Of a stretch of DNA of 44,058 nucleotides, positions 3,243 through 42,126 are shown piece by piece. The stretch lies in IMG/VR virus record IMGVR_UViG_3300034064_001058, positions 1 to 44,058 of that record; one strand, written 5' to 3'. How positions within the stretch are numbered: the first letter of the stretch is position 1; each line of letters begins with the position of its first letter. The DNA is from a virus. Under the pieces are notes generated by a model that was not told where the DNA came from, did no database searches, and saw nothing but the letters and a program-made list of their open reading frames with translations. Position numbers and translations under genes: made by a program.

Positions 3243-4508
3243 TTAATTGGAATAGTAGGCCCAAGTGCCGTACGGTGGTACGACAGTGTTGTTGCCGTGG
3301 ATAATCCATAGAGTGTCAGCGTAATTTTCATCACCCCATGTGCCACAAGGGTACCCGTCAGTGAACACAACCAGTCGTTTGGGCTCGATGTCGTTGTTTT
3401 TCATGTAGTTAAACATACAACCAAAGTCTGTGCCGCCACCACCATGGACTTCATAGTCGGTGATATCGACGATGTTATCGCTGTTGAATTCTTGCACGTT
3501 ATACACTTCAGTATCAAACGTACCAAGAATGATTCGGAAGTTGGGAAATTGTTCCATGATACCTTGTATTTCGCCAAGCTGGTCGCGTGTCATCTTGTTG
3601 TTGATGGAGCCAGATTGGTCCATGAACACCACGATGTCGACCATTTTGTCTCTGTCCGAACCAGGTAATATTGCATCCAAGTGCCAACCACGCCGGCTAC
3701 TTCTCATCCAGGTGTAATCTGATTTTACAGCAGATTCGAGCTGCTGCTGAATCAGCTCTCGCCAGTCGAGCGTAGGTGCAGTTATATCTTTTATGAGCTT
3801 TTTGACACCTGCTGGTAGATTTCCAGCGTTGTCGCATGATTGAGCAGCTGTTATGATAGCTTCTCGTAGCTCGTCGCGTATTGCTTGACGTTCTTCTGCA
3901 GTCAGCGAAGGACGTTTGGATTTTCCATCACCATTGCCATCGCCATCACCATCTGCGTCACCATCGCCGTCCATATGCTCGTCCAGCATTTGCTCAATAA
4001 GATCTTCGAGACTTATTTTTTCCATATTTTGGAATAGATCATCGTACACTTGCTCGGCTGACCAACCTTCGTACTTTGCATCGTACAAGCAGTCGACCGT
4101 GGTAATAAATTCACCAATACGATGTTTTTTGAGATCTGCGTTTACACAGTAGTCGGCAGCAATGTTGAACAGTTGAGCATCTCGAGACCCGCGTCGGCCA
4201 AAGTGATCGTATACGCAGTGCAGCACTTCGTGTCCAAACAGGAACTGAACTTCTTTTTGACGAAGGGAGTTGATGAACCGCGAGTTGTAGTAAAAACTTC
4301 TACCATCGGTTGCCGCTGTCTCGCACCACTCATCGGCGTTTACCAGCTTCAAGCGAGTGGCAAGATTGCCAAAGAAGCTGTTCTTGATCAGAAGAGTCAC
4401 CCGAGACTGGACGAGCGCATCTTTAGCCTTCAGATCCTCGGCAGGTACGGTAGCACCGAGACGTGATTTGAAGGGCGCTTTTTGCTTTTTGGTGGCAGGT
4501 TTAACCAT
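3243..4508 (-). CDS. VWA-like / putative metallopeptidase protein
   Basis: The N-terminal domain has HEVLHCVYDH at residues 93-102, the zinc motif of the DUF2201 putative metallopeptidases. An Asp/Gly-rich linker (about 180-195) follows. The C-terminal half has a von Willebrand A fold with the metal-binding D-x-S-x-S motif at 297-301. This family usually works with a MoxR-type AAA+ ATPase, and one is encoded at 14271-15356. Together they probably remodel a protein target. It is the first gene after the promoter at 4540-4568. The target is unknown. Confidence 0.85.
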   Translation of the reverse strand: MVKPATKKQKAPFKSRLGATVPAEDLKAKDALVQSRVTLLIKNSFFGNLATRLKLVNADEWCETAATDGRSFYYNSRFINSLRQKEVQFLFGHEVLHCVYDHFGRRGSRDAQLFNIAADYCVNADLKKHRIGEFITTVDCLYDAKYEGWSAEQVYDDLFQNMEKISLEDLIEQMLDEHMDGDGDADGDGDGNGDGKSKRPSLTAEERQAIRDELREAIITAAQSCDNAGNLPAGVKKLIKDITAPTLDWRELIQQQLESAVKSDYTWMRSSRRGWHLDAILPGSDRDKMVDIVVFMDQSGSINNKMTRDQLGEIQGIMEQFPNFRIILGTFDTEVYNVQEFNSDNIVDITDYEVHGGGGTDFGCMFNYMKNNDIEPKRLVVFTDGYPCGTWGDENYADTLWIIHGNNTVVPPYGTWAYYSN

Positions 4509-4539
4509 CTTGTCTACTCCATATATGTATTATGAAACC

Positions 4540-4568
4540 AGTATACGACACCACTGCCATCTTGTCAA
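4540..4568 (-). promoter_or_regulatory. Sigma70-type promoter (VWA operon)
   Basis: On the minus strand, TTGACA is followed after 17 nt by TATACT. It lies 32 nt before the VWA-protein start. Confidence 0.85.
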
Positions 4569-4574
4569 GCACTT

Positions 4575-4796
4575 TTATGCCCATCGAAGCAGAAATATCG
4601 TGGCCTTCTCCTCGCTGTCGAACACCGCGTTGAACACATAGACGTCACCGACATACTCTCTGTTGACTTGTCCGCCGTACCTCGCAATCTCATCCACGCA
4701 TGCCTTGTACCAATTGTCTACCTCCAGAGTGGTAAAATGCCTGTATATGTTTATCCACCACGAACTTCCTGGTGCATTCAGGGTGACCTTTTCCAT
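4575..4796 (-). CDS. Small protein, FLLRW-tail family (73 aa)
   Basis: The C-terminus reads FDSEEKATIFLLRWA, the same closing motif seen in four neighbours. Function is unknown. The start overlaps the preceding stop as TAATG, which implies translational coupling. Confidence 0.65.
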   Translation of the reverse strand: MEKVTLNAPGSSWWINIYRHFTTLEVDNWYKACVDEIARYGGQVNREYVGDVYVFNAVFDSEEKATIFLLRWA

Positions 4797-5161
4797 TATC
4801 CTCTCCGCATCTTCGAGATAGACTCTGCATCCTCCTGTGAAAAAACAGGCACTGCGTTGGATTTGTGAAGCGTGGCGATACCCAATAGTGTGCGTTCACC
4901 AGCGTACACCCTAGCCTCTTTTGCTGGCGTTTGTCCAATACCAGTGTCGACACTTGGATAGTAAGGAGTCTCCCGAACAAATGAATAGTCGGGTTTATAC
5001 GTCTCGCGCTTCTTAGGCGCCGGTGCTGTGCTTTTCTTCAGCTCTTCCTTCCATTCTTGATATGCCATATACTGCCGTTTTTCTTCCGCCGAGGCGAACT
5101 TCTGCTTACGTTTGCGAGTCTGCGTGGTAGTGTACTCTGGTCCAAGCAAGTGCATTGTCAT
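4796..5161 (-). CDS. Conserved phage hypothetical protein (121 aa)
   Basis: The N-terminus (MHLLGPEYTTTQTRKRKQKF) is highly basic and resembles a short conserved start found in many T4-like phage proteins of unknown function. A Lys/Glu-rich helix and a low-complexity middle follow. Its own promoter lies at 5188-5216, and an AGGAGG site precedes the start. Confidence 0.65.
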   Translation of the reverse strand: MTMHLLGPEYTTTQTRKRKQKFASAEEKRQYMAYQEWKEELKKSTAPAPKKRETYKPDYSFVRETPYYPSVDTGIGQTPAKEARVYAGERTLLGIATLHKSNAVPVFSQEDAESISKMRRG

Positions 5162-5479: not shown

Positions 5480-5567
5480 TGCACAATACCAAATAAAGCA
5501 CCACAAAAAAACCCAGTCCTACTATCATTTCCAGCAACAGCAATAAACCCAACGTCAAGTGTGTCAT
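5463..5567 (-). CDS. Small single-pass membrane protein (34 aa)
   Basis: This short frame is nearly all one hydrophobic helix (about residues 4-28) ending in an acidic NDDDA tail. The start is locked in by an ATGA overlap with the previous gene's stop at 5564-5567. Function is unknown. Confidence 0.5.
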   Translation of the reverse strand: MTHLTLGLLLLLEMIVGLGFFVVLYLVLCNDDDA

Positions 5568-5941
5568 GACCACCTCAGTAGAAACAAACCATACTCTATT
5601 TCATTCATGAACGCAACTGAAAAAACGTCATGATCTCCGAAATGACTCTCGACCCACCCTGAACACTCGGTCCATGATGCCCTATGCCAACTAATTAAAT
5701 ATCGTTCTTTGCAATTTGCTATACACCAGCTTCGCATTTCAAAAAGATTCTGCCATCCAGTATTTTGGTATGTAAGAAAAGCTATATGGTTATACCCAGG
5801 GTAGTAGTCGTTTATCACGGATGTTTTATAATTAACACGTCCGCTATGCAGTCTTTCATAGTCTTCATAACTTAAGACATCATACCGCCAAAGGAAATAC
5901 TCTCTGCGAATTAACCTTAGAAACGCACGAATTCTTCTCAC
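5564..5941 (-). CDS. Small protein, FLLRW-tail family (125 aa)
   Basis: It ends FMNEIEYGLFLLRWS. A GTG start at 5941 forms a GTGA overlap with the preceding stop, matching the ATGA couplings around it; a GTG at 5947 is also possible. The N-terminus is Arg-rich. Function is unknown. Confidence 0.6.
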   Translation of the reverse strand: MRRIRAFLRLIRREYFLWRYDVLSYEDYERLHSGRVNYKTSVINDYYPGYNHIAFLTYQNTGWQNLFEMRSWCIANCKERYLISWHRASWTECSGWVESHFGDHDVFSVAFMNEIEYGLFLLRWS

Positions 5942-10459: not shown

Positions 10460-11737
10460 ATGGCTACTATAGCAAACAAAGCAGTTGCAGCAGATGCTCC
10501 GTTGTTGGATAAGGTCTGGTTGACCTTTGCATTTGGTATTTACACCGTATTCTACATTTGGGTACGTTGGTATGAAGGCGTTTACGGCTGGTCAGCGGGT
10601 CTTGACTCGTTCGCACCTGAGTTCGAAACCTACTGGATGAACTTCCTGTACACCGAAATCGTACTGGAAGTAACGACCGCCTCCATTCTGTGGGGCTACA
10701 TCTGGAAGAGCCGTGACCGCAACATGGCGGCAATGGCGCCACGTGAAGAACTGCGTCGCAACATGACCCACCTGATTTGGCTGTTCGCCTATGCAAACGC
10801 CATTTATTGGGGTGCTTCATATTTCACTGAGCAGGACGGCACCTGGCATCAGACGATCGTGCGTGACACCGACTTCACCCCGTCACACATCATCGAGTTC
10901 TACCTGACCTACCCGATCTACATCATCACCGGCTTTGCAGCGTTCCTGTATGCCAAGACCCGTCTGCCGCACTTCGCGGAAGGCCTGTCCTTGCCCTACC
11001 TGGTAACCGTTGTTGGTCCGTTCATGATTCTGCCTAACGTAGGTCTGAACGAGTGGGGTCACACTTTCTGGTTTCATCGTAAGCCACTTTAAACAGCAAT
11101 GTTTATCGAAAATCACTTTAATTGCTGGGATATCCCTCTGGGACAATCAGCAGCCAAGCTCAGAAATGAGAAGGTTCAACGACTAGCCGTAAGGCGTACT
11201 CCTAAGCAGGAGGAAATGGGTGAGATCCTAATGGGATCAAGATATAGTCTGATCTGCATGGTAACATGCAGCAGTCCGAATAGGACGGATAAGGAAGTAG
11301 CGAGCCTTGTTGAACATAATGTTATGGAAGAACTTTTTGTAGCACCGCTGCACTATGGATTTGTATTTTTCGGTCAACAATAATCGGCCGCTTCTTGCAG
11401 TAATGTGAGTCGAAAAACTCCTTTAATTGCTGGGACACCCCAATGGGGCAATCAGCAGCCAAGCTCAGAAATGAGAAGGTTCAACGACCAGAGCGAAAGC
11501 TCGTAGGATCAAGTGATCCGAAATGGGGAGCAACCAGAAATGGTTGAAGATATGGTCTGATCTACATGGCAACATGTAGCAGTCGAATCGACGATACAAG
11601 ATTAACGATCTTGTGTGAACATAATGTGGTTAGCACTAGCAATCGCTGGGGTATTGCTCCAAGTGTTTGCGAGTTTCGGTAACCTGATTGGTAATCAGAT
11701 CACTGAAGCAGTAGATAAAGGGCTGATTGCGAAGTAA
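10460..11737 (+). CDS. pmoC: Particulate methane monooxygenase subunit C, interrupted by two group I introns
   Basis: Coding sequence is join(10460..11072, 11322..11374, 11627..11737), 258 residues, the full PmoC core length. PmoC is a membrane subunit of the copper enzyme that oxidises methane to methanol. The spliced protein keeps D126, H130 and H143 (Cu-C site) and N197, H201 and H215 (Cu-D site), matching D156/H160/H173 and N227/H231/H245 of Methylococcus capsulatus. The ATG at 10460 is chosen over 10454 because AGAGGA stands at proper spacing. Without splicing, translation stops at 11092 after W204-F-H-R-K-P-L and loses H215 and the last helix. Exon 1 is richer in G+C and in CTG/CGT codons than its neighbours, as expected for a host-derived gene. 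No pmoA or pmoB is in the window. Confidence 0.96.
11073..11321 (+). ncRNA. Group I intron 1 in pmoC (249 nt)
   Basis: The exon ends in U (TGGT) and the intron in G (CATAATG). GCCA at 11083-11086 is the internal guide and pairs with exon UGGU, placing the diagnostic U-G wobble at the splice site. Core: P element around 11119-11130, Q around 11143-11155, R GTTCAACGACTA at 11174-11185 and S AAGATATAGTC at 11239-11249. P7 forms from GACTA and TAGTC. A GTAA-loop hairpin follows at 11254-11271. There is no open frame for an endonuclease inside. The insertion is within codon F205, between the Cu-D ligands H201 and H215. Confidence 0.93.
11375..11626 (+). ncRNA. Group I intron 2 in pmoC (252 nt)
   Basis: This is a homologue of intron 1 with the same ends. 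Exon CGGU pairs with guide GCCG at 11387-11390, again with U-G at the splice site. The core is at P 11423-11435, Q 11449-11460, R ending GACCA (11486-11490) and S AAGATATGGTC (11547-11557). Relative to intron 1, P7 has changed from a T-A to a C-G pair on both sides. The P9-region hairpin has changed a G-C pair to A-T and keeps a GNRA loop (GCAA). These paired changes show that both RNAs are under structural selection. The insertion is exactly between Gly and Trp codons. Confidence 0.93.
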
Positions 11738-11756: not shown

Positions 11757-11780
11757 AAAAGGGCCTTCGGGCCCTTTTCT
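11757..11780 (+). terminator. Rho-independent terminator of pmoC
   Basis: A 9-bp stem (AAAAGGGCC with GGCCCTTTT) is capped by a TTCG tetraloop and followed by CTT, 19 nt after the pmoC stop. Confidence 0.92.
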
Positions 11781-12577
11781 TATGACGTTTTCTTTTGCTT
11801 CTTACATTGTTTACTGTTGTAGTGTTGACGTAAGTTTTGCTCGCCCTTCATTTCTCGTCTACACTCAATGCAGCAGAAAGACAGAAGAGTATTGCTTATT
11901 TTCTGCTTGACGTCTGCGTTTTTTGACACGTTATCTACTCCATATTTTTCAACGCAGGTCTTCATCGATTTTCTGCGAACCTCTGCAGATTGCATCGGAT
12001 AATCTACTCCAAGATTGATATTATTTGTGTCTCTTAACTTTGCTAGAATATCATCACACTTTAAATGATGATCTACGCCGTACTTTTTCACGCAGGTATC
12101 CTTTGCTTGTTTTCGATTATTGAAGGTTTCATCACCGTGATTTTTCAACCTGGTTGATTTCTGCCTTTTCTTCGCTAAGTCTGAGTTAACTGATTCTCTG
12201 TGTTTCTTTTTGATATCTGGTCTATGGATGATGTTATTCTCGCCATGGCCCCAACCCTGGCCCTCTTCGTCTTTTTCATTGGCCCATTGTTTGCTGTCGA
12301 CGATGTTCCAGAGTCGAGAATACAATCGGCCCCATGCTACAAGGGCATTGGTAGAATAGCACTTCTGCAAGATGTAAGTCTCGTGTTCAAACCCGTGCTT
12401 CCTTAAGTGCCTAGTCCAATGCACTCCTGAGCCATTGTATTTGAATGGATCACGGACAGTCTGTCCTAAATATTTTAGTCCTGTTTTCTTGTGAGTTTTG
12501 ACGTAAAGATAAATAATCACGCTGATGACCTCCGAAGTCGTTAGAGCCATTGGATGTTCTCGCATCGTGAATGGCAT
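11780..12577 (-). CDS. GIY-YIG homing endonuclease, free-standing (265 aa)
   Basis: The N-terminal catalytic fold shows YLYVKTHKKTGLKYLGQT, a GIY-YIG variant. Three repeats of the form TCVKKYGVDH / TCVEKYGVDN (DNA-binding modules of phage HNH/GIY nucleases) follow, then a C-terminal Cys2-His-Cys zinc finger (CCIEC...H...C). It sits convergent to pmoC within 50 nt, so it may once have mobilised the introns or the locus. The first 20 or so residues are read from the complement of a 64-bp pmoC-tail repeat (12521-12584). The start is uncertain: ATG 12577 lacks a ribosome site, though TATAAATA lies upstream. Confidence 0.85.
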   Translation of the reverse strand: MPFTMREHPMALTTSEVISVIIYLYVKTHKKTGLKYLGQTVRDPFKYNGSGVHWTRHLRKHGFEHETYILQKCYSTNALVAWGRLYSRLWNIVDSKQWANEKDEEGQGWGHGENNIIHRPDIKKKHRESVNSDLAKKRQKSTRLKNHGDETFNNRKQAKDTCVKKYGVDHHLKCDDILAKLRDTNNINLGVDYPMQSAEVRRKSMKTCVEKYGVDNVSKNADVKQKISNTLLSFCCIECRREMKGEQNLRQHYNSKQCKKQKKTS

Positions 12578-12584
12578 TTTTATT
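12521..12584. repeat. 64-bp direct repeat, copy 1
   Basis: It matches 12943-13006 with one mismatch. On the plus strand it reads as a tail following the broken pmoC copy; on the minus strand it encodes the N-terminus of the endonuclease. Confidence 0.95.
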
Positions 12585-12626: not shown

Positions 12627-12863
12627 ATGAATAATTTAATTGAACAACTATGTGAAAAAGCAACTATACAATCAGTATCTGAAAATTTTAACGGCGAGGA
12701 TAGTTTAACCATACAGACTCCTTCAAAAGAATGGGCAGAAAAGTTTGCTGAACTAATTATTAATCATTGTATTGAACTCGTTGAACCCGAAGATCAGGAA
12801 TACATGAATTCTTTACTCAAATTTAAAGTATGGTGTATTAAAACAGATTTTGGTATTAAATAA
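12627..12863 (+). CDS. Small protein of the MNExI...HFG family (78 aa)
   Basis: The ATG at 12627 follows a GAGGTG ribosome site; a GTG at 12618 is the alternative. The pattern MNNLIEQLCEKA ... WAEKFAELIINHCIEL ... DFGIK matches the minus-strand family at 16.9-18.7 kb, but this member lies on the plus strand between the two 64-bp repeats. Its A+T content is very high. Function is unknown. Confidence 0.65.
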   Translation: MNNLIEQLCEKATIQSVSENFNGEDSLTIQTPSKEWAEKFAELIINHCIELVEPEDQEYMNSLLKFKVWCIKTDFGIK

Positions 12864-12865
12864 AA

Positions 12866-13009
12866 TATGATTTTGTGGTGTTCGGGTGGATGGCACCAGC
12901 TATTGTCAGCGTTCTACTCCAGGTGTTTGATAGTTTTGGCAAGCTGATGACCTCCGAAGTCGTTAGAGCCATCGGATGTTCTCGCATCGTGAATGGCATT
13001 TTTATTTAG
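12866..13009 (+). pseudogene. Broken second pmoC copy (C-terminal 47 codons)
   Basis: The frame reads YDFVVFGWMAPAIVSVLLQ then VFDSFGKLM, aligning with YGFVFFGWLALAIAGVLLQ then VFASFGNLI of the intact gene. It begins where the middle exon would carry its last residues, has no start codon, and runs across the Gly-Trp junction that holds intron 2 in the intact copy. After about 34 codons it continues into the 64-bp repeat sequence with an unrelated end (IVNGIFI). Confidence 0.85.
12943..13006. repeat. 64-bp direct repeat, copy 2
   Basis: It matches 12521-12584 at 63 of 64 positions and forms the 3' end of the broken pmoC copy. Confidence 0.95.
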
Positions 13010-13086: not shown

Positions 13087-13764
13087 ATGAAAATCACGAA
13101 GCATATTTTGGACGTTTTGTGTCCACAAGGCAAAGATTCAATCACTGGGTCAGTAGCAGAATATTTCAATACCTATGCCGAGAAGTATGGAATAACCACA
13201 CCTTCGCGTATAGCGCACTTTTTCGCCCAAGCTGCACACGAGTCAGCACACTTCGCCACCCTCGAGGAGTACGCGTCTGGTGCAGCCTATGAAGGTAGAA
13301 AAGACCTAGGCAATACGCAATCTGGGGATGGCAAAAGGTACAAGGGACGAGGTATATTCCAGCTGACGGGCAGAGCTAACTATCGTGTGTTTGGAAATCG
13401 TATCGGACAAGATCTTGAAGATAACCCAGAACTTGCCAGCACAGGTGAGATATCAGTTCAAACCGCGCTGGAGTATTGGAAGGATAGAAAGTTAAATGGT
13501 TACGCAGATGTCGACGACGTTGTTGCTGTGACCAAACGAATCAATGGTGGAACCAATGGTCTCGACGATCGCAGGAGCATCTTGGTCAAAATGAAAAATA
13601 TTCTGACGCAGGTTATCCTCAATGAGGCGCTGAACTTATCTTTGAAAGTAGATGGAGATATTGGCCCATCGTCGGTGGAAGCAATCAAGAAGTTTCAAAC
13701 ATCAAAGGGATTGACATCAGATGGCAAGTTAGGTCCAAAGACCTTGAAGGCCCTGGGCTTTTGA
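13087..13764 (+). CDS. Endolysin: GH19 muramidase/chitinase-like with peptidoglycan-binding domain
   Basis: Residues 1-170 form a glycoside hydrolase family 19 domain: AAHESAHFATLEE (catalytic Glu at 52, second Glu near 60) and GRGIFQLTGRANYR. Residues of about 175-225 form a PG_binding_1 domain (VDGDIGPSSVEAIKKFQ, GLTSDGKLGPKT). It would cut peptidoglycan at lysis, after holin action. It is a globular modular endolysin without a signal peptide, so it needs a holin. A lipoprotein gene follows at once. Confidence 0.93.
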   Translation: MKITKHILDVLCPQGKDSITGSVAEYFNTYAEKYGITTPSRIAHFFAQAAHESAHFATLEEYASGAAYEGRKDLGNTQSGDGKRYKGRGIFQLTGRANYRVFGNRIGQDLEDNPELASTGEISVQTALEYWKDRKLNGYADVDDVVAVTKRINGGTNGLDDRRSILVKMKNILTQVILNEALNLSLKVDGDIGPSSVEAIKKFQTSKGLTSDGKLGPKTLKALGF

Positions 13765-26291: not shown

Positions 26292-26332
26292 GTCTATGGG
26301 TGTAGTATAGCACAAGATGAAGGAGTGTCAAC
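26292..26332. repeat. 41-bp identical promoter repeat, copy 1
   Basis: Identical to 27627-27667 and covering both promoter boxes and the spacer. Confidence 0.95.
26304..26331 (-). promoter_or_regulatory. Sigma70-type promoter (duplicated)
   Basis: On the minus strand, TTGACA is followed after 16 nt by TATACT; part of the 41-bp repeat. Confidence 0.88.
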
Positions 26333-27347
26333 CATTTTTCATAAGAAATTTATTGCTAATCGTCTTAAACGAGATCGTTGGTTCCTGATCGCATTTCCAA
26401 ACAAGCCCCTCTCGCTCAGTCTTGGGATTTAGCAAAGACTTGGCCTCGGCGATCTGCAGCATATCGTCAATGGTCCACTCGGTGGCGATTTCCCTGCTGG
26501 ATTCAATCACAGGAACATGCTTCAAGTTTAGCTCTAATACCAGTTTCATCCTGGATTGCGGGTCAAAGTAAGTGTCCTCTTTGATGTCAAAGACATCAAA
26601 AACAAAGAAGTCTTGTCCTTTAATCTTGTATGGATTACTTTGGATACCTTCGCCGATGACTTCTCCTTGGAAAGCGATATTATCTAGACCCAGTTCTCTC
26701 ATTCGTTCTTCGACTTGATATACTAGAGCCATTCTCCATAGAGCGTTAGTCTCGCTGAACCGTAACTCAAGATTTCTAGAGCATACGCCAAACGTACCGT
26801 CCTTTATGAACATGGTACAACTGGTACCGTCGAGCTTCTCGGTTACCTCAAAGGTCAATCTTCTAGATTTGTATTCTTTGATTTCAAATCTTAGATTCTG
26901 AATTCGTTCTTGATCAGTTTTACGAATAGCAGAGGGAAAGAGTCCTTTGAGTTCTCCGCCTATACACGCAGCAATAGGAGGTTCGTATTTTTGGATATTT
27001 AGGTATTCCGAGCAATCAAACCCTTCTTCGTATGCTACGTCGGATAGCATATCTATTGGTAAAATAAGTCCTTGGGAGATTTGTCCCCTCAACCTAACGG
27101 TTCTAAGACGTTCTCCTGGGACACCATTATACTCTCGGGGTTCTTTGGCCTTCGAGAGGAAGGGTGCAATGGTAAAGGGGATCCAACTATCGATCTCGCA
27201 GTATACTACAAGGTCGCCTATGCTGAATTCATCTTTTTTGACCACTACCTTCCATCCGTCTATGACTGCCACCTCAATAGCGTCTGCGCCTGGAATAGGT
27301 TTTATATCGAGAATTTTACGAACGGTTGCCATCTTACGCTCAGACAT
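26328..27347 (-). CDS. RNA ligase, DRB0094 (Rnl5) type (339 aa)
   Basis: Residues of about 1-120 form an OB-like N-terminal domain typical of Deinococcus DRB0094-type ligases. The adenylation motif E-K-L-D-G-T is at 170-175 with nucleophile K171. Downstream motifs include FGVCSRN, FQGEVIGEG (motif IV-like) and REGLVWK (motif IV/V). It would seal RNA nicks or broken tRNAs. This is the second RNA ligase in the window, with a different fold from 31084-32007. AGAGG precedes the start. Confidence 0.88.
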   Translation of the reverse strand: MSERKMATVRKILDIKPIPGADAIEVAVIDGWKVVVKKDEFSIGDLVVYCEIDSWIPFTIAPFLSKAKEPREYNGVPGERLRTVRLRGQISQGLILPIDMLSDVAYEEGFDCSEYLNIQKYEPPIAACIGGELKGLFPSAIRKTDQERIQNLRFEIKEYKSRRLTFEVTEKLDGTSCTMFIKDGTFGVCSRNLELRFSETNALWRMALVYQVEERMRELGLDNIAFQGEVIGEGIQSNPYKIKGQDFFVFDVFDIKEDTYFDPQSRMKLVLELNLKHVPVIESSREIATEWTIDDMLQIAEAKSLLNPKTEREGLVWKCDQEPTISFKTISNKFLMKNG

Positions 27348-31083: not shown

Positions 31084-32007
31084 TTACTCCATCATTATTC
31101 GTTCAAAATACTGTCGAATGAATATCAATCTAGCTTGTTCACCGAGATTCAGGAACTCATCCTTGTTGGCAACCAAGAAGTCTACCAGTTGATAATGCTC
31201 TTCTTCGATTCGTTGCTTCATTATAGCAGGTTTTTCCAACATTGATGCAAGTTTTTCAGAATTCATTCTGGCTAAAAACTTGGAAACTAGGTAGTACGGG
31301 CTTTTGATCTTCAGCGAGGTATGCTTTCCATATACAACAAAGCCTTCGTGCTGACAATCTTTCACCTCCTTTACGATATCACCGAATCTGGCCTCTTTCC
31401 ATAGTGGACGCATTAGCCCAGCTGACAGAGCTACATTATCCAACCAGTCTTCACGAATAGCGTTGGACGAATAATCAGCTGAGTGCGTCACTACTCTAGC
31501 ACCTATCAGGTAAGCACCAGGCTTCTCTGGAATGATGTGCGGATCTGTTGGATCAACTATTTCAAATAGCCAAGTGATCTTCTTGTCTGGAATCCTTGAC
31601 CCTAGAACACGAAGAATGTCAGGTGTAATATATTTTTTAGCTATCTGAACAAAGTCTGAATCCAACGAACCAGTAGTAGAAACAACCCAGCCATGTCCGT
31701 TGACGTGCGTAGCTGCTGCCATGAATCCATTTACCTTGCCTACGGCAATCACTGGTTCATCGCGCTCGATGTCAGTGTTGTTTTCAAACCTGTTGAAAAT
31801 TTTAGTAAATGGTCGAATGACAGCTTCATAGTTTTCATCTACTACCAAGCCCCTGGCTTCTACCAGAAACTTGTCCCACCGATTGTCATAGAATACGCGC
31901 CTCTGGTATTTTATGACGTACAAGCCTGGATATCCAGTGGACTCTCGCATCTTGATCAGTGACGGGTTGGCTTCAACATAAGCCTTGAGTTCTTCAGATG
32001 AGATCAT
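31084..32007 (-). CDS. T4 Rnl1-like RNA ligase (307 aa)
   Basis: Features of the T4 RNA ligase 1 N-terminal family are in order: EARGLVVD (about 50-57), RPFTKIFNRFE, the nucleotidyl motif V-G-K-V-N-G with K91, then WLFEIVDP and EGFVVYG. It would seal RNA breaks, such as tRNAs cut by host anticodon nucleases. The ATG at 32007 has AGGAGG upstream. Two broken copies of its first codons lie at 32970-33032 and 33548-33583. The motif I Asp of the usual K-x-D-G is Asn here. Confidence 0.85.
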   Translation of the reverse strand: MISSEELKAYVEANPSLIKMRESTGYPGLYVIKYQRRVFYDNRWDKFLVEARGLVVDENYEAVIRPFTKIFNRFENNTDIERDEPVIAVGKVNGFMAAATHVNGHGWVVSTTGSLDSDFVQIAKKYITPDILRVLGSRIPDKKITWLFEIVDPTDPHIIPEKPGAYLIGARVVTHSADYSSNAIREDWLDNVALSAGLMRPLWKEARFGDIVKEVKDCQHEGFVVYGKHTSLKIKSPYYLVSKFLARMNSEKLASMLEKPAIMKQRIEEEHYQLVDFLVANKDEFLNLGEQARLIFIRQYFERIMME

Positions 32008-32029
32008 AAATCCTCCTAACTTTATGTGT

Positions 32030-32058
32030 ATGGTAACACAGAATTGAGATGCTGTCAA
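32030..32058 (-). promoter_or_regulatory. Sigma70-type promoter (RNA ligase and phosphoesterase)
   Basis: On the minus strand, TTGACA is followed after 17 nt by TACCAT. Confidence 0.72.
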
Positions 32059-32102
32059 GAACTTTTCGCGGAGGACAGAGAAAAATAAATAAGAATGACT
32101 CG

Positions 32103-32136
32103 CGGGACGGCAATCCCCAGTCAGCCTAACGTCCCG
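32103..32136 (+). promoter_or_regulatory. Hairpin abutting the ribosome site of a homing endonuclease
   Basis: CGGGACG (32103-32109) pairs with CGTCCCG (32130-32136). The 3' arm runs straight into GGGAGGAC, the ribosome site of the endonuclease at 32150. In T4, such hairpins hold down translation of homing endonucleases. Control here is inferred. Confidence 0.6.
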
Positions 32137-32149
32137 GGAGGACATCAGC

Positions 32150-32965
32150 ATGTTTATTTATTACGTCTACAGACTTGTTCACAAAACATCAGGACAAGAA
32201 TATTTTGGTTCACGAAAAACTGCCCAGGTTGATCCGTATGATGATCTGGGAGTCAAATACTTCTCATCCTCAAAGATCGTCAAGGAAATCGGATTCGCCG
32301 AATTCTACCACGAAGTAGTCGCAGTCTACGACTCATTCACCGAATGCTACTGGGAAGAACAGCGACTCATTGAGTCAATCTTCAATTCTGGCAAATGCCT
32401 TAATCGATCGTTCTATCGTCAAACGGACAACTCGCGAGTTTTCTCAATGACCGGCAGAACTCAAACTCGTGAACACATCGAAAAACGTGCCGCCAGGCAA
32501 CGAGGCAAAATAACCAAACGAAAAGGCTTGCCTGAAACCTTGAAACATATGAAACGAATGACGGAAGCTAGGCTCAAGAAATATCCAGCTGGCGTCTTCA
32601 AGCATTCCGAAGAATCAAAAGAAAAGAATCGTCAAGCTCATATCGGAAGAAGAGACTCCGATGAAACAAAGCGGAAGAAAAGCAAATCTGCATCAGGCAA
32701 GCCTAAGTTCTGGCTTAAGGGGCGAACCCTGACGCCTGAACACATCCAACGAGGGAACGAGTCTCGCGCAAAAAACCGAGAAACTTGGTCACAGGAGAAG
32801 AAGGATGAGGTGGCAAAACAAATTTCAGACAAGCTCAAAGGAAAACCAAAAACATATCAGACCAACTGCGCGAAGAAGTTCATGTGTCGCATCACTGATA
32901 AGAAGGAGATGAGTAAAGCGACAGCGGCGTTATGCTTCAAGGACAACAAGAATGACTTCTGGTAG
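32150..32965 (+). CDS. GIY-YIG homing endonuclease with NUMOD3 motifs (271 aa)
   Basis: The N-terminus IYYVYRLVHKTSGQEYFGSR is the GIY-YIG motif; R near 57-62 and E near 75 follow as in the family. The middle and C-terminal parts are Lys/Arg-rich with NUMOD3-like DNA-binding segments (HSEESKEKNRQAHIGR, SGKPKFWLKGRTLTPEH). It is inserted, in opposite orientation, between the intact RNA ligase gene and a broken copy of that gene's 5' end. Confidence 0.88.
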   Translation: MFIYYVYRLVHKTSGQEYFGSRKTAQVDPYDDLGVKYFSSSKIVKEIGFAEFYHEVVAVYDSFTECYWEEQRLIESIFNSGKCLNRSFYRQTDNSRVFSMTGRTQTREHIEKRAARQRGKITKRKGLPETLKHMKRMTEARLKKYPAGVFKHSEESKEKNRQAHIGRRDSDETKRKKSKSASGKPKFWLKGRTLTPEHIQRGNESRAKNRETWSQEKKDEVAKQISDKLKGKPKTYQTNCAKKFMCRITDKKEMSKATAALCFKDNKNDFW

Positions 32966-35978: not shown

Positions 35979-36054
35979 TGGAGCTCCAGAAAGGAATTGA
36001 ACCCTCAACCTACTGATTACAAATCAGTTGCTCTACCGATTGAGCTACTGGAGC
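35979..36054 (-). tRNA. tRNA-Thr (TGT)
   Basis: A full 76-nt cloverleaf. The acceptor GCTCCAG pairs with CTGGAGC, CCA is encoded, and anticodon TGT sits in the loop TTTGTAA. Confidence 0.93.
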
Positions 36055-36069
36055 GTGAACTTGTAATGT

Positions 36070-36077
36070 TATTTATC
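36070..36077 (-). promoter_or_regulatory. GATAAATA upstream of tRNA-Thr
   Basis: The late-type 8-mer is read on the minus strand 15 nt before the tRNA 5' end. Confidence 0.35.
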
Positions 36078-36158
36078 GATCTCCATTTGTCACATAAATT
36101 TTCTTGGGTCATCCAATAATGATTTGAATCATAGAGCACCGACTCCAGCAGTGTAACC

Positions 36159-36506
36159 TCACAATTCTCCTCGCTTTTTCATGATCGCCATGCCGCATTC
36201 AGCAGAATCAATCTTGTTATCTATTAGGTTAACCAGAGCAGATTTATGAGTGACTATAAAATGTTGGATCTCCCTGATCTCTCGATCCAACAGGCCATCA
36301 TCAATATTTTTGACCTGTTTTGGATCAGAACCTACTAAGAATATCGCTGACCACTTGCCGTTCTTTTTAATCTTCGCTCTGTATCTAGAATGTCCATGTT
36401 CCAGTGGCTCTGCCCGAAGCCATATTTCGATATTACCAGGCAAACCTGTTGTTCGGGAATTAAATCCCGACATCTCGTACAAATGATCAATCTCGTCGAT
36501 TATCAT
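36159..36506 (-). CDS. Conserved phage hypothetical protein (115 aa)
   Basis: Contains GLPGNIEIWLRAEPLEHGHS, RYRAKIKKNGKW and a C-terminal helix with IDSAECGM. Proteins of this plan occur in other large phages with no known role. It abuts the FtsH stop by 6 nt. Confidence 0.6.
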   Translation of the reverse strand: MIIDEIDHLYEMSGFNSRTTGLPGNIEIWLRAEPLEHGHSRYRAKIKKNGKWSAIFLVGSDPKQVKNIDDGLLDREIREIQHFIVTHKSALVNLIDNKIDSAECGMAIMKKRGEL

Positions 36507-36512
36507 GGCTCA

Positions 36513-38291
36513 TTAAGCCTTCATGATTTCTTCTATCTGGTCGTTGTCGATAGTTTCATCACGCATGAGAGCTTCTACCATTGCTTCCATTTTGTCCCAG
36601 TTGTCCTGTACCAATTTGTAGGCTTTGTCGTAGTTGCGTTGGATAATATCCTCGATTTCCTTTTCGATCAGATTGTTGACTTCATCAAGTCCTACCTTTA
36701 GATGAGAGTGTCCTGCTCCAACGTATCCACCTTCTTCCTCGACGTACTTGATGGGCTTCAGATTTGGACTCATGCCCCACTCCGTAACCATTCGAGTGGC
36801 TATAACCGTTGCTCGTTCAATATCGTTACTCGCTCCCGTAGTAACACCGTCAGCACCTGCCACGATCTCCTCAGCTATGCGACCACCATATAGGCTGGCA
36901 ATCTGTCCCTCCAACTTGCGCTTGGACATACTGACCGAGTCTCTCTCAGGTAAAAACATGGTAATGCCCAAAGCTCTGCCTCTTGGTATGATCGATACTT
37001 TGTAGATAGGATCATGCTCAGGAGTTAGGTAACCAACGACCGCATGCCCTGCTTCATGATAAGCAGTCAAACGCTTTTCATCCTCACTCATCGCAAAGGT
37101 CTTGCGTTCAGCACCCATCAGAATCTTATCCTTAGCCTTTTCAAAATGCCTCATGTGAATTTCATCACGATCGCATTTACTAGCCAAAATACTTGCTTCG
37201 TTGACTAAGTTGGCCAACTCTGCTCCACTGAAGCCTGGTGTTCCTCTTGCTAAGTCATGAAGTTTGACGTCTGCTGCCAAAGGTACATCCTTGGTATGAA
37301 CTTCAAGTATCTGCTCTCTTCCAAGAATATCTGGCAATCCAACAGTAACCTGACGATCAAATCGACCTGGACGCAACAGAGCCTTGTCCAATATCTCTGG
37401 GCGATTGGTAGCAGCTACGATGATGATTCCCTGTGAAGCCTCGAACCCATCCATTTCTACCAGCAGGGCATTCAGTGTTTGATCTCGCTCGTCGTTGCCA
37501 ATCATGCTATTGGTTCTTGCCTTACCTATTGCGTCGATCTCGTCAATGAATATGATGCAAGGACTCTGTTTGCGAGCCTCTTCGAACATATCTCTTACTC
37601 GGCTTGCTCCTACGCCAACAAACATTTCGACAAAGTCTGAACCTGATATACTGAAGAATGACACCCCAGCTTCACCAGCTACGGCCTTTGCCAACATTGT
37701 TTTACCTGTTCCAGGTGGCCCAACAAGCAACACGCCTCTAGGTATCTTGCCCCCTAACTTGCTGAACTTCTTGGGATCCTTGAGGAAGTCAACGATCTCA
37801 ACAACTTCCGACTTTGCTTCATCACAACCAGCGACGTCAGCAAATGTGATTTTCGTGCTAGATTGACTAAGAAGTTTGTGCTTACTCTTTCCCATAAGCC
37901 CGCCGCCACTCTGTGATTGTCGCCTCATGAAGAATATCCAGACGCCGATGAACACAAACATAGGCAGCCAACTGATCAAGATTTCCAAAAACATATTTCG
38001 TTCAGGTGGTGGGGCGGCCCTGACTTCTACGTCATTTCCCAATAGGTCATTTATTAGCCCTGAATCGTGTGGTGCGTAGACAAAGAAGGCATCTCCACTA
38101 CGAGACTCGCCCTTGATGATTTTGTCGTCGATGATCACACGCTTGATGGTATGTGCTTTGATTTCTTTGATGAACGAGCTATACGGCAGCGGCAGCGCCT
38201 CAAATTTCGGCGTGAATGCTTGCTGCATCATGTACACTCCTAGCGCCAATACAGCAATGACTATAATGGCTGGAAGACGATTTTTGCTCAT
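36513..38291 (-). CDS. ftsH: FtsH-type AAA+ zinc metalloprotease (592 aa)
   Basis: FtsH is a membrane-anchored hexamer that extracts and degrades membrane proteins. Two transmembrane segments (about 5-22 and 105-122) flank a periplasmic domain. The AAA module has Walker A GPPGTGKT (191-198), Walker B IIFIDE (246-251) and the SRH with RPGRFDR. The protease has HEAGH at 412-416 and the third zinc ligand Asp in the later [10 protein letters not shown] region. All catalytic parts are kept. AAAGAGAA precedes the ATG. It is slightly shorter than host FtsH because the C-terminal tail is short. In this phage it could turn over methane monooxygenase or other membrane targets; an SPFH partner is at 19993. 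Confidence 0.96.
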
Positions 38292-38322
38292 GTTTTTCTC
38301 TTTGTATTTTTGTTATAGGTGT

Positions 38323-38349
38323 CGTGGCACGAGAATATCATGCCACGAA
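38323..38349. other. Inverted repeat between ftsH and a zinc-ribbon gene
   Basis: TCGTGGCA and TGCCACGA form an 8-bp hairpin with an 11-nt loop. No T-run follows on either strand, so it may be an RNA-processing or stability element rather than a terminator. Confidence 0.55.
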
Positions 38350-38358
38350 TATGAAATG

Positions 38359-38517
38359 CTAAGTTTTGGATTCCTTGCCACATACTGTGCATTTGGCTGC
38401 GGTCTTCTTCATATCCAAGTTATGAAGTCGCATCCCCTCGCCATATTTTTTATCTTGATAATCCGATGAATGACTCGGCTCTCCTTTGCATCCGCATTTT
38501 TTGACTACTGTTGCCAT
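38359..38517 (-). CDS. Small zinc-ribbon protein (52 aa)
   Basis: KKCGCKGE near the start and KCTVCGKES near the end give a C-x-C ... C-x2-C metal site. DYQDKKYGEGMRLHN between them is widespread in small phage proteins. AGGAGGAGC precedes the ATG. Function is unknown. Confidence 0.72.
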   Translation of the reverse strand: MATVVKKCGCKGEPSHSSDYQDKKYGEGMRLHNLDMKKTAAKCTVCGKESKT

Positions 38518-38536
38518 GATTGCTCCTCCTATAAAA

Positions 38537-38610
38537 TGGCTGAGGGACTAGGGCTCGAACCTAGATTAACGATGTCAAAGACCGTTGTCCTACCATTAGA
38601 CGATCCCTCA
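38537..38610 (-). tRNA. tRNA-Gln (TTG)
   Basis: 74 nt with encoded CCA; acceptor TGAGGGA pairs with TCCCTCA. The anticodon stem ACGGT/ATCGT closes on CTTTGAC, anticodon TTG. Confidence 0.92.
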
Positions 38611-38613
38611 ATG

Positions 38614-38684
38614 AGCGGGATAGCGGAATTGAACCGCTTTAGCCAGCTTGGAAGGCTGGAGCACAACCAATATGCCAATCCCGC
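38614..38684 (-). tRNA. tRNA-Gly (TCC)
   Basis: 71 nt without encoded CCA; acceptor GCGGGAT pairs with ATCCCGC. Anticodon stem CCAGC/GCTGG, anticodon TCC. Confidence 0.92.
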
Positions 38685-38774
38685 TTGATCTTTACTATCA
38701 CTCTGTTTCGTAGTTCAAGGAATAGAACACCTCTCTGACTAAGGGAAGGTTGTGGGTTCTATTTTTGCCCTAGT
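38685..38774 (+). other. Degenerate tRNA-like segment in the tRNA cluster
   Basis: This 90-nt gap, the size of a tRNA, lies between tRNA-Gly and tRNA-Leu. On the plus strand it has a D-arm (GTTC ... GAAC), an anticodon-like arm and GGGTTC in T-loop position, but the acceptor strands do not pair. It may be a decayed tRNA in opposite orientation. Confidence 0.4.
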
Positions 38775-38859
38775 TGGTGGGGTATGTCAGACTCGAACTG
38801 ACACGGAATTATCCATCGAGGCTTAAACTCGGTGCGGCTACCAATTACGCCAATACCCC
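38775..38859 (-). tRNA. tRNA-Leu (TAA)
   Basis: 85 nt with a long variable arm and encoded CCA; acceptor GGGGTAT pairs with ATACCCC. Anticodon TAA in loop TTTAAGC. Confidence 0.92.
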
Positions 38860-38864
38860 GTAAC

Positions 38865-39284
38865 CTATTTAGAATATTGATTATTTCCTTTTTTATTGTT
38901 TGATGGTTTACCTTTATTTGCTGTTCCGAGGGTATTACCGATCATCCTTCTACTATTCATTTTGCATGCTTCATCATATCCATACTTATCGATCATTCTA
39001 TCCCACGGACTTTTCCAAGTACCGTCATTTTTAGAGTCGAATATGTTTTCACTACGAGTACCCCAATATAGATGACGTGGGTTTGAGCATTTGTCATTGT
39101 GACAAGCATGACATAAATCGATGACTGGCTTAACACTCACTGGGATATTGGTATTGAGATACTCTGCCAATACGCCTTTATGCACAGTGCTATTACCTCC
39201 TCGTTCCACACATGACTCCGATAAGTCAAGATGCGCCTGTCTAACTGTTTTTTCTTCCTTGATCCATTCTTCTACTAACTTCAT
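38865..39284 (-). CDS. HNH endonuclease (139 aa)
   Basis: The HNH core is VIDLCHACHNDKCSNPRHLY (about 54-73) with cysteines for structural zinc. The tail has NUMOD3-like NKGKPSNNKKGNNQYS. It lies 5 nt from tRNA-Leu, a usual place for phage homing endonucleases. A DNA-cleaving role is likely; its site is unknown. Confidence 0.88.
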   Translation of the reverse strand: MKLVEEWIKEEKTVRQAHLDLSESCVERGGNSTVHKGVLAEYLNTNIPVSVKPVIDLCHACHNDKCSNPRHLYWGTRSENIFDSKNDGTWKSPWDRMIDKYGYDEACKMNSRRMIGNTLGTANKGKPSNNKKGNNQYSK

Positions 39285-39352
39285 AATCTTATTTAATAAG
39301 GTCTTCCTTTGCTAGGTACGATATTTATCAGTCTGTTAAAGAGCTTTGGAAT

Positions 39353-39370
39353 AACGCCGTCCTTGGCGTA
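39353..39370 (-). terminator. Possible weak terminator after the omega-like gene
   Basis: ACGCC and GGCGT form a 5-bp stem with a 6-nt loop, followed on the minus strand by TATT only. The short T-run makes this uncertain. Confidence 0.35.
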
Positions 39371-39381
39371 TGAAGTGCGGC

Positions 39382-39666
39382 CTACAGTGTCCAGCCCTCG
39401 TTGAATCTACCAGAGTAGAATTTTCGCTTCTCCTCTGGAGTCAGTCGAGTAATGTAGTCCAGTGGATTGATCTTACCCGCTTGAATTTCGATCAAGGCAT
39501 CGATCGGAGTGACGTATGGATCAACCTCGTTGCGTCTACGCGCAGCTAGAATCTCTCTAGTTCGTCTTGCCGCTACCAAAATCATCTCAGGACGACTACC
39601 ATCGAAGTTTTCCAGGCATTCCAGAATGTCGATACGGTCACTGCGGGATGGAGTTTTAATTTTCAT
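39382..39666 (-). CDS. RNA polymerase omega subunit-like protein (94 aa)
   Basis: The segment RPEMILVAARRTREI followed by TPIDALIEIQAGKI lines up with the RpoZ core (R-x-x-LVLVAARRAR ... VIALREI-x-x-G-x-I). Length 94 aa is close to the 91 of E. coli omega. Omega helps hold beta-prime in the polymerase. A phage version could join or redirect host RNA polymerase. The match is by motif only. Confidence 0.6.
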   Translation of the reverse strand: MKIKTPSRSDRIDILECLENFDGSRPEMILVAARRTREILAARRRNEVDPYVTPIDALIEIQAGKINPLDYITRLTPEEKRKFYSGRFNEGWTL

Positions 39667-39696
39667 CGTTTTACCTATCGCTGTTGATGTTCGTGT

Positions 39697-39725
39697 AGTA
39701 TGCTATGAATGTTGGACACTGTCAA
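39697..39725 (-). promoter_or_regulatory. Sigma70-type promoter (omega-like gene)
   Basis: On the minus strand, TTGACA is followed after 17 nt by CATACT. Confidence 0.78.
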
Positions 39726-39731
39726 GCGTTT

Positions 39732-40001
39732 TTAACCGGTTCTTTGAATTAAATGATACCCAAACTGCGTCTGCACCGGCGATGATACCTGATCAATGGC
39801 TAGAGAAAACGTCGCAACTTCAAATTCCGGTACCATGGCGCCTCTGGTAAATTCGCCAAGATCGCCACCACGTTGTCCACTAGGGCAACGACTGTGCTTC
39901 TTTGCTAGATCACCAAATGTCTGTCCTTGAGCCAGCTCGCCTAGCAGGGCGTTGGCTTGTTCTACAGTTTCGACTAGGATGTGACTTGCCCTTACTTTCA
40001 T
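39732..40001 (-). CDS. Parvulin-type peptidyl-prolyl isomerase (89 aa)
   Basis: A single PpiC-type rotamase domain: ASHILVETVEQANALL, FGDLAKKHSRCPSGQRGGDLG, FTRGAMVPEFE and QFGYHLIQ. Both His of the catalytic set (ASH, GYH) and the Cys are kept. It helps fold proteins with prolyl bonds. No signal peptide is present, so it acts in the cytoplasm. Start overlaps the upstream stop as ATGA. Confidence 0.92.
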   Translation of the reverse strand: MKVRASHILVETVEQANALLGELAQGQTFGDLAKKHSRCPSGQRGGDLGEFTRGAMVPEFEVATFSLAIDQVSSPVQTQFGYHLIQRTG

Positions 40002-40147
40002 GCTGAAACTCCCGAGCGAGCCTTCTTGGCCGCTATTGCTTGACGATAACGATGCTTGGCCTTTTTACTAGAAGTCTTGCCAATCATCTCTTCGAGTTGA
40101 GCTACGTTCAACGGTCCAACTCTAGGTTTGCCGTTTTTGGTTAGCAT
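39998..40147 (-). CDS. Small basic protein (49 aa)
   Basis: Reads MLTKNGKPRVGPLNVAQLEE and then a Lys/Arg/Ala helix. The start motif KPRVGPL is shared by short proteins of T4-like phages. It is coupled to the parvulin gene. Function is unknown. Confidence 0.65.
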   Translation of the reverse strand: MLTKNGKPRVGPLNVAQLEEMIGKTSSKKAKHRYRQAIAAKKARSGVSA

Positions 40148-40201
40148 TGGATTTCTATGTTTTGTATGTTTCAATTAAGTATCCTATTGGTATAGTTGTT
40201 A

Positions 40202-40414
40202 TTAATGGCCTTCTGGTACGAAGAAGAACAATTCCTCATGTGCATAAGCTGTCTTCAACTGATTCAGAACATACGATGAAATATAAAATTGCTCGTATTG
40301 TCCTTTTGGAATGGTACCAGAGGCACTTATTGCTCCCTTTTGACTGTCGAAAATACCAAGCAGCGTATTCTGCCCAGCTGATTGATTTACACCGAAAAGT
40401 GCGAATAGGTCCAT
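40202..40414 (-). CDS. Hypothetical protein (70 aa)
   Basis: The ATG at 40414 has AAGGAG seven bases upstream; the longer frame overlaps tRNA-Asn and is rejected. Function is unknown. Confidence 0.62.
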   Translation of the reverse strand: MDLFALFGVNQSAGQNTLLGIFDSQKGAISASGTIPKGQYEQFYISSYVLNQLKTAYAHEELFFFVPEGH

Positions 40415-40462
40415 TGTTTTCTCCTTTAGTGGTTGTGAACTGTCGTAGTTATTTACTGTTGT

Positions 40463-40491
40463 ATGGTAGCTTAGGGATATTTGTCTGTCAA
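40463..40491 (-). promoter_or_regulatory. Sigma70-type promoter
   Basis: On the minus strand, TTGACA is followed after 17 nt by TACCAT. Confidence 0.72.
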
Positions 40492-40497
40492 GCAAAG

Positions 40498-40521
40498 AAA
40501 ACCCCGATATGACTCGGGGTT
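40498..40521 (-). terminator. Terminator after tRNA-Asn
   Basis: On the minus strand, AACCCCGA pairs with TCGGGGTT (loop GTCATA) and is followed by TTCTTT. Confidence 0.85.
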
Positions 40522-40527
40522 TGGTAT

Positions 40528-40602
40528 TGGCTGGCAAGGAGGGGATCGAACCCCCGACCAGGTGATTAACAGTCACCGGCTCTGCCTCTGAGCTACTTGC
40601 CA
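40528..40602 (-). tRNA. tRNA-Asn (GTT)
   Basis: 75 nt with encoded CCA; acceptor TGGCAAG pairs with CTTGCCA. Anticodon stem GGTGA/TCACC, anticodon GTT. Confidence 0.93.
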
Positions 40603-40617
40603 TTTGAACTGTTATTT

Positions 40618-40625
40618 TATTTATA
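40618..40625 (-). promoter_or_regulatory. TATAAATA upstream of tRNA-Asn
   Basis: Exact T4 late core on the minus strand, 15 nt before the tRNA 5' end. Confidence 0.4.
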
Positions 40626-40666
40626 GATATTTTTGTATACGTCTAAATTTTTCCTTTCTTCATAAT

Positions 40667-40752
40667 TGGTGGGAGATATAGGATTCGAACCTATTCATCC
40701 AGAGGAAACAGATTTACAGTCTGCCCCGGCTCTCCAACTCCGGCGCTCTCCC
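40667..40752 (-). tRNA. tRNA-Tyr (GTA)
   Basis: 86 nt with a long variable arm and encoded CCA. The anticodon stem CAGA/TCTG holds GTA. The last acceptor pair (G-A) is mismatched. Confidence 0.9.
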
Positions 40753-40766
40753 AATATTCGTGAACT

Positions 40767-40943
40767 CTATTCTTCTCGCTGCTGTCTTGCCAATATAGCA
40801 ATATATTGTGCTGCGTTATTCAACGGTTTTGCCGCAGCTTGTAAAGTCTTTAAATCAATTTTCCCACGTTTGTAGTCATTCCTTACATTCGCAAGTTCCG
40901 TTTGGATAAACGCTATTATATCTTCAGCTTCAACCTGTGCCAT
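40767..40943 (-). CDS. Small helical protein (58 aa)
   Basis: The ATG at 40943 (MAQVEAEDIIAFIQTEL) is chosen because GAGAGAAG stands upstream; the longer frame runs into the promoter. Function is unknown. Confidence 0.6.
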   Translation of the reverse strand: MAQVEAEDIIAFIQTELANVRNDYKRGKIDLKTLQAAAKPLNNAAQYIAILARQQREE

Positions 40944-40972
40944 AATCTTCTCTCGTTTTCGACTATGAGTGT

Positions 40973-41000
40973 AGTATATATCACTCCAGGAGAATGTCAA
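40973..41000 (-). promoter_or_regulatory. Sigma70-type promoter
   Basis: On the minus strand, TTGACA is followed after 16 nt by TATACT. Confidence 0.87.
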
Positions 41001-41066
41001 GCATTTTATCAGAATCGCAAAGCCTTGTCCTATATGACTGGGAGGATGTCAAATGATTGTCAACTG

Positions 41067-41456
41067 TTACGGAGCCAAAAATCTGTTGAACAACTCAGGG
41101 TACAAATTAGCTACTTTTTCTAATTCATTCCAGTCACCCTGTTTTAGCTGGTTTGAATCGTAATATTGAAGTCTCCCGCCAATCGCCTTTGCGATTCCCA
41201 AAAATGCGTCCCGAATACTCGGATCATTTGATATCGGCAGTCCTAGATGCTTGATTGCTGTAGCATGCAACAATGCTCCACTAAAGGCGTACAATTTACC
41301 ATCATACATGATAAATCTTACCAAATTAGTATCTTCGCCTAGTTCTTTAATTTCAGAACTAGTTGGATTTACGAAAATTGGATATTTTTTTCTATTTATA
41401 GGAGAATCAACTAAGGAATGGTATTCCTCGTTAATCATCAACTCATGGATTTTCAT
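41067..41456 (-). CDS. Hypothetical protein (129 aa)
   Basis: The ATG at 41456 (MKIHELMINEEY) is favoured; 41465 is also possible. A mixed fold with a Gly-rich middle, no known domain. It lies between tRNA-Tyr and tRNA-Ser. Confidence 0.6.
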   Translation of the reverse strand: MKIHELMINEEYHSLVDSPINRKKYPIFVNPTSSEIKELGEDTNLVRFIMYDGKLYAFSGALLHATAIKHLGLPISNDPSIRDAFLGIAKAIGGRLQYYDSNQLKQGDWNELEKVANLYPELFNRFLAP

Positions 41457-41475
41457 TATTTGCATTCTCAAATAT

Positions 41476-41564: not shown

Positions 41565-41574
41565 TGTTTAACAT

Positions 41575-41650: not shown

Positions 41651-41655
41651 ATTAT

Positions 41656-41741: not shown

Positions 41742-41748
41742 AACATCC

Positions 41749-41943: not shown

Positions 41944-41960
41944 ATTTATCTCCTGTGCTA

Positions 41961-42116: not shown

Positions 42117-42126
42117 GGCAATACCT

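Follow-up and report, generated by a model that had tools for sequence, protein, structure and literature searches.

Group I introns at several sites of a phage-borne pmoC gene and their probable transfer by collaborative homing

The window analyzed here, that is, the whole stretch of DNA under study, is a record of 44,058 bases from a virus of methanotrophs and harbors, at positions 10460-11737, an interrupted gene. The Pfam match of its first exon to AmoC (PF04896, E 5.4e-102) identifies it as phage pmoC, which encodes subunit C of methane monooxygenase. The gene and its two introns, here termed I1 and I2, present the following features, with insertion sites denoted by the letters used in the survey below:

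10460-11072, plus strand: first exon of pmoC, for subunit C of particulate methane monooxygenase, covering codons 1-204 and one further base, from the PF04896 match and splicing
11073-11321, plus strand: group I intron I1, 249 nt, ORF-less, at site D (codon 205, phase 1), with an RF00028 match of 86.6 bits and a clean spliced frame
11077-11086, plus strand: I1 guide from a pairing scan, with the P10 strand at 11077-11082 and the P1 guide GCCA at 11083-11086, its G forming a G.U pair with the final base of the exon
11109-11276, plus strand: I1 catalytic core, P3 to P9 (cmsearch R1, 184.4 bits; covariation of the set)
11322-11374, plus strand: pmoC exon 2, 53 nt, from splicing
11375-11626, plus strand: group I intron I2, 252 nt, ORF-less, at site F (after codon 222), with an RF00028 match of 90.6 bits and a clean spliced frame
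11381-11390, plus strand: I2 guide from a pairing scan, with the P10 strand at 11381-11386 and the P1 guide GCCG at 11387-11390
11414-11584, plus strand: I2 catalytic core, P3 to P9 (cmsearch R1, 190.7 bits)
11627-11737, plus strand: pmoC exon 3, including the stop codon, from splicing

The Rfam search places the RF00028 matches at 11065-11271 for the I1 region (E 7.7e-21) and at 11365-11579 for the I2 region (E 4.8e-22), both exceeding the gathering cut-off of 50 bits. With both introns removed, the exons join as an unbroken PmoC of 258 amino acids, and retention of either one introduces stop codons. These matches and the clean spliced frame confirm what the initial annotation had described, namely two introns at these positions, separated by a 53-nt exon and sharing the 3' end GAACATAATG. 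The terminal base is G in both, and in both the U of the 5' exon pairs with a guide G. Their cores are 88% identical over 78 nt and 86% over 43 nt, and their full-length identity is 70%. Joining the 5' site of I1 to the 3' site of I2 would skip the 53-nt exon and shift the frame, yielding a truncated PmoC; exon skipping is known from other phage introns, as described in passages of PMC11878797.

In an 11-row alignment of related introns, the core helices are paired in 99.6% of 462 cells, against 30-47% for slid versions of the structure. Compensatory changes are likewise abundant, with 30 of the 42 pairs changed on both sides (shuffled mean 17.8, and none of 500 shuffles as high), although the structure was derived from the same 11-row alignment that was used for covariation, so that the result leans that way. 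The guides of I1 and I2 each fit their junction with 4+6 bp (P1 plus P10), and for each guide its own site ranks first among the 18 admissible sites in the window pmoC. The presence of related introns with changed guides within one gene, as initially annotated, is borne out by the GCCA and GCCG guides and by the drop in score from 17 to 7 when the guides are swapped. The fit is looser in relatives, the own site ranking second in L084_E, L023_C and L030_C, fourth in L018_E and eighteenth in L121_G. Read from the sequence, I1 and I2 are ORF-less group I ribozymes, each fitted to its own site, and they should splice themselves out in vivo to restore PmoC.

The comparison was extended to other viral pmoC loci, for which a scan with exon 1 kept 80 of 136 and three scans with part of the gene or other PmoC types supplied the rest. 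These loci were collapsed to 73 non-identical groups, all of which were searched for introns through tblastn interruptions and covariance models. Eight of the 73 groups bear introns of this kind, 12 in all, at eight sites located, in window numbering, at codons 43 (A), 127 (G), 200 (B), 203 (C), 205 (D), 212 (E), 218 (H) and 222 (F). Besides the window (D and F), locus L084 presents four introns in one gene (B, D, E and F), and the remaining loci carry a single intron each: L027 at A, L121 at G, L018 at E, L023/L036 and L030/L032 at C, and L024/L029 at H. Six of the eight sites are packed into 66 nt of near-invariant coding sequence, a proximity reached in 0.06% of draws under uniform placement if sites are taken as independent; in codons 196-222, 26 of 27 residues are invariant across 26 PmoC rows, against 119 of 231 elsewhere. 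Bacterial pmoC genes, in turn, are uninterrupted in 80 of 80 cases (the best 80 of the 548 relatives found).

PmoC was not found in the INPHARED phage collection, and the intron DNA of the window yielded, among known phages, 546 records in which the core is similar; no match reached 80% coverage of the query. An exact-pattern search for the I1 lineage retrieved only L084, L574 (nearly a copy of it) and, in L573, a distantly related intron. As to a bacterial source of the introns, a cmsearch gave no hits in four methanotroph genomes or in 38 genomes of one family (three shared), an empty result that, lacking a positive control, is uninformative. Several observations accompany the survey. The site-B intron of L084 (L084:1543-1793) ends in A instead of the near-universal G, and no reading that restores PmoC yields a terminal G. 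The same genome holds a fifth intron of this class at codon 4 of another gene, from about position 8650 onward, directly downstream of a gene for a 293-aa zinc-finger protein (L084:7720-8601) whose start looks GIY-YIG-like by eye; the two might constitute another intron-endonuclease pair within this one genome. In L083 (3369-4627), an intron of the same class adjoins a 336-aa ORF inside what appears by eye to be a tail-sheath-like gene, and in L502 (3411-4003) the pmoC frames are split near codons 63-67, where a frameshift or a sequencing error is possible.

Because the window is a metagenomic contig, known here from DNA alone, and the related L084_B lacks a terminal G, an assembly artefact or decayed, non-splicing insertions might be invoked. 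We regard this as very improbable indeed, given that both sites are also filled in an independent, diverged contig (L084), that three further intron alleles were each found in two contigs, that covariation is strong among the related introns, that the spliced frame is intact and that I1 and I2 both end in G.

The kinship of the two introns was addressed with two trees. A core tree of 95 introns brought together the 12 from pmoC, three more that the locus searches had turned up and matches from two sampled sets (the best 30 out of 143 and the best 60 out of 131), less identical rows; the other was a full-length tree of 14 rows. I1 is closest to L084_D, which occupies the same site in L084 (87% identity over the full length), and the two pair at 100/93 in the core tree and at 50/50 in the full-length tree, the inner branches of which are mostly weak. 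Similarly, the nearest relative of I2 is the same-site intron L084_F (79%), followed by the introns at codon 43 (L027_A, 77%) and codon 127 (76%). The initial annotation had read I1 and I2 as sisters arising from intron spread inside one gene. An exclusive pairing of the two is rejected with the full-length introns (AU p=0.005) and marginally disfavored, without formal rejection, in the core tree (p=0.068). Hence, the reading of I1 and I2 as recent sisters is not supported, and recent local duplication as their closest relationship was discarded on the same-site identities and the full-length AU result, to be kept only as an old possibility. What does stand of that proposal is that the intron class has colonized several sites of pmoC. 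A clade uniting site-D and site-F introns is not rejected (p=0.247 full-length, p=0.466 core tree), and an older jump between these sites would therefore be possible.

The view that I2 derives from I1, or I1 from I2, by reverse splicing or by transposition into a different position of the gene is nonetheless unlikely. It would draw on that tolerated clade and on target sequences: the 5' exon ends in GGT at all six type-1 pmoC sites (intron types are defined below), including D and F, whereas GGT accounts for 6-9% of T-ending positions, and the 8-base target CGGT|TGGT occurs at both codon 43 (site A) and codon 222 (site F). A case in its favor is also provided by L084_B, which in the core tree pairs at 91/94 with an intron in another L084 gene. 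However, I1 and I2 resemble their same-site counterparts more than each other, their exclusive pairing is rejected at full length, and type-1 pmoC introns are intermixed in the core tree with introns of other phage genes, the pmoC label changing eight times, at least five of them forced, when all 12 pmoC introns are counted. Moreover, the two delimited type-1 introns outside pmoC follow 5' exons that do not end in GGT, and the motif may thus also denote pmoC-specific recruitment.

Beyond the gene, the window presents an endonuclease gene and traces of rearrangement:

11780-12577, minus strand: free-standing homing endonuclease P0002, 265 aa, with a predicted GIY-YIG domain (residues 20-107) and a C-terminal zinc finger (PHROG homing endonuclease, E 5.9e-13; fold match)
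12518-12584, no strand assigned: copy 1 of a 67-bp direct repeat, over the endonuclease start, 97% identical to 12940-13006
12860-12973, plus strand: relic of a second pmoC 3' end, with similarity that sets in near codon 216 (55% over 38 codons by tblastn, E 6e-10)
12940-13006, no strand assigned: copy 2 of the repeat, over the end of the pmoC relic, 97% identical to copy 1

P0002 is predicted to be a GIY-YIG endonuclease. The best fold match of its predicted model is the catalytic domain of I-TevI (Z 10.2, 2.4 A over 85 residues), with a Foldseek E of 0.09 and a probability of 0.99; mean pLDDT is 52.8 and reaches about 80 in the GIY-YIG domain. Residues Y25, Y36 and G38 are invariant in a seven-row alignment. 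The Pfam search produced no match of P0002 to PF01541 at E up to 1, and a PDB sequence search with P0002 returned nothing useful.

An endonuclease gene lies immediately beside pmoC in seven of eight intron-bearing groups and in six of 58 intronless ones (Fisher p=1.6e-5), as counted over the 66 groups with adequate flanks (seven of the 73 were dropped) and with calls made by PHROG scans, or by Pfam GIY-YIG for L084. The association holds with one vote per 95% identity cluster (6/7 against 6/45, p=2.8e-4) and per 90% cluster (6/7 against 6/44), and is weaker at 85% (4/5 against 5/21, p=0.034). Different endonuclease families occur at different sites, with GIY-YIG predicted in P0002 and L084 and HNH in L121. 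In favor of intron transfer with a neighboring endonuclease, loci L030 and L024, near relatives at about 90% identity in the pmoC region and 95% in the downstream gene, differ in both intron site and endonuclease, and the site-C endonucleases from two phage lineages have 68% identity. Against it, the site-E intron of L018 has no endonuclease gene in its immediate flank, and the window and L084 have sites D and F in common while their endonucleases are dissimilar (no mutual blastp match at E 1e-3). Endonuclease turnover, as put forward for loci of this sort in sections of PMC10448857, could explain L018, the mismatch between the window and L084, and the six intronless groups that carry an endonuclease.

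A footprint of transfer is seen in L036 and L021, which match at about 99% identity along 4.59 kb on the upstream side and 2.85 kb on the downstream side. The site-C intron, at its exact site, and the endonuclease gene are confined to L036. In the 134-nt exon segment that separates them there are 16 mismatches, against two in 500 nt of the upstream flank (one lying close to the splice site) and two in 500 nt downstream. To judge from these alignments, the difference is the footprint of homing with co-conversion, in which intron, altered 3' exon and endonuclease were gained as one unit. The initial annotation had held that the pattern was not one of homing at one site; this claim is at odds with the data, in which each site is common to different phages and a homing-like transfer is apparent at site C. 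No such joint-gain pair was found among viral pmoC loci for the window sites D and F.

A displaced pmoC 3' end beyond the endonuclease is found in two loci, the window and L440. In the latter, an intact intronless pmoC is followed by a homing endonuclease gene, beyond which comes another pmoC 3' end (4182-4859, 5512-5655). This relic is 99.3% identical over 136 bp to L005, from another phage, and its first matching codon, Pro213, is the first after site E; on this near-identity, it is a fresh recombination scar. The displaced ends in both loci place recombination breakpoints inside the intron cluster. A host-phage mosaic of pmoC was also considered. In the window, GC3 falls from 0.63-0.85 over codons 44-180 to 0.28-0.44 in exons 2-3, and the best matches of codons 44-185 after L084 are bacterial. 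The argument was not rested on the GC3 split, since for codons 186-258, too, a bacterial MAG contig (L328, 80.4%) surpasses every viral row except L084. Elsewhere in the window, a chitinase-class (GH19) protein with peptidoglycan-binding domains, likely an endolysin, is encoded just past the pmoC relic (13087-13764); two RNA ligase genes lie at 26328-27347 and 31084-32151, and eight tRNA genes (Rfam) at 35982-42655 on the minus strand.

The introns, their splice frame and fitted guides, the neighboring endonuclease, the same-site relatives and one joint gain are read from the DNA, and they suggest that collaborative homing, acting at several sites of the gene, is probably the main route by which these introns move from phage to phage. 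A free-standing endonuclease beside pmoC (here P0002, predicted GIY-YIG) would cut an intronless pmoC; repair from the donor would bring in the endonuclease gene together with the intron or introns and some of the 3' exon, and the arrived intron would destroy the cut site. P0002 would thus be the enzyme cleaving pmoC and the introns its protection, I1 and I2 being residents of two separate sites in the most conserved stretch of the gene.

An alternative origin, in which pmoC was invaded independently by introns from distinct phage lineages and the near-invariant stretch served as a common endonuclease target, must be weighed here. It is congruent with the deep split of pmoC introns into two types (100/100 in the 95-row tree), type 2 at sites C and E and type 1 at the rest; with the affinity, in the core tree, of the site C and E introns for those of other phage contigs (L248 and L277); and with the invariance of codons 196-222 and the different endonuclease families found with different sites. 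Nevertheless, the D and F data do not separate such independent acquisitions from an old jump (p=0.247), the common GGT targets are left unexplained, and we consider this origin quite improbable. Within the preferred reading of collaborative homing, a more far-reaching possibility can be offered tentatively: the near-invariant end of pmoC might be a battleground of successive, unrelated endonucleases, and the stacked introns a cumulative record of immunity, each blocking the site of one enzyme while splicing keeps the gene functional. Phages might thereby exclude the alleles of rivals and exchange pmoC as a homing cassette.

Collaborative homing between an intron and a free-standing endonuclease has been described for the psbA intron of cyanophage S-PM2 and F-CphI, according to passages of PMC6083498 and PMC3984707. 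The pmoC loci resemble that system, as far as those passages describe it, in combining an ORF-less group I intron within a phage-borne, host-derived metabolic gene with an adjacent free-standing homing endonuclease gene, but differ from it in having several introns over eight sites and predicted GIY-YIG or HNH enzymes, which would cleave pmoC, instead of the Endo VII-type F-CphI. Multiple introns per gene, up to three of group I, have been reported for the polymerase and terminase genes of the Bastillevirinae (sections of PMC11878797). With these, in the portions consulted, pmoC has in common that a single phage gene contains several group I introns, with small internal exons; unlike those core nucleotide, DNA-metabolism and terminase genes, it is metabolic and holds up to four ORF-less introns at sites spanning 66 coding nt. 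The orf142 gene of phage Twort is likewise said to contain three introns. Group I introns of rDNA reportedly spread by reverse splicing, and the pmoC introns recall them in that relatives occupy different sites of a single gene and their short targets match; in contrast to that spread, same-site relatives are closer in pmoC, and endonuclease-linked, DNA-based transfer is visible at one site.

Methanotroph phages carrying pmoC have been described in portions of PMC7674155 and PMC10904782, in the main text of which the words "intron" and "endonuclease" do not occur. Literature searches combining "group I intron" with pmoC retrieved no paper, and those combining pmoC, phage and intron retrieved, judged by titles, none concerning pmoC introns. 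Within the literature searched, the novelty seems to lie in the gene, in the density of its introns (four in one gene, eight sites overall) and in the exchange of intron-endonuclease cassettes that can be seen.

These findings bear on how phage pmoC is annotated and understood. ORF-based annotation will label intron-bearing pmoC as truncated. The gene becomes the second metabolic gene, after psbA, in which the pairing of introns with free-standing endonucleases can be studied, and natural empty and filled alleles exist in phages that are about 99% identical. A role in boosting methane oxidation has been discussed for phage pmoC; should the gene indeed depend on ribozyme splicing at as many as four places and be passed on as a cassette driven by an endonuclease, its expression and spread would follow the rules of selfish elements as well as metabolic benefit.
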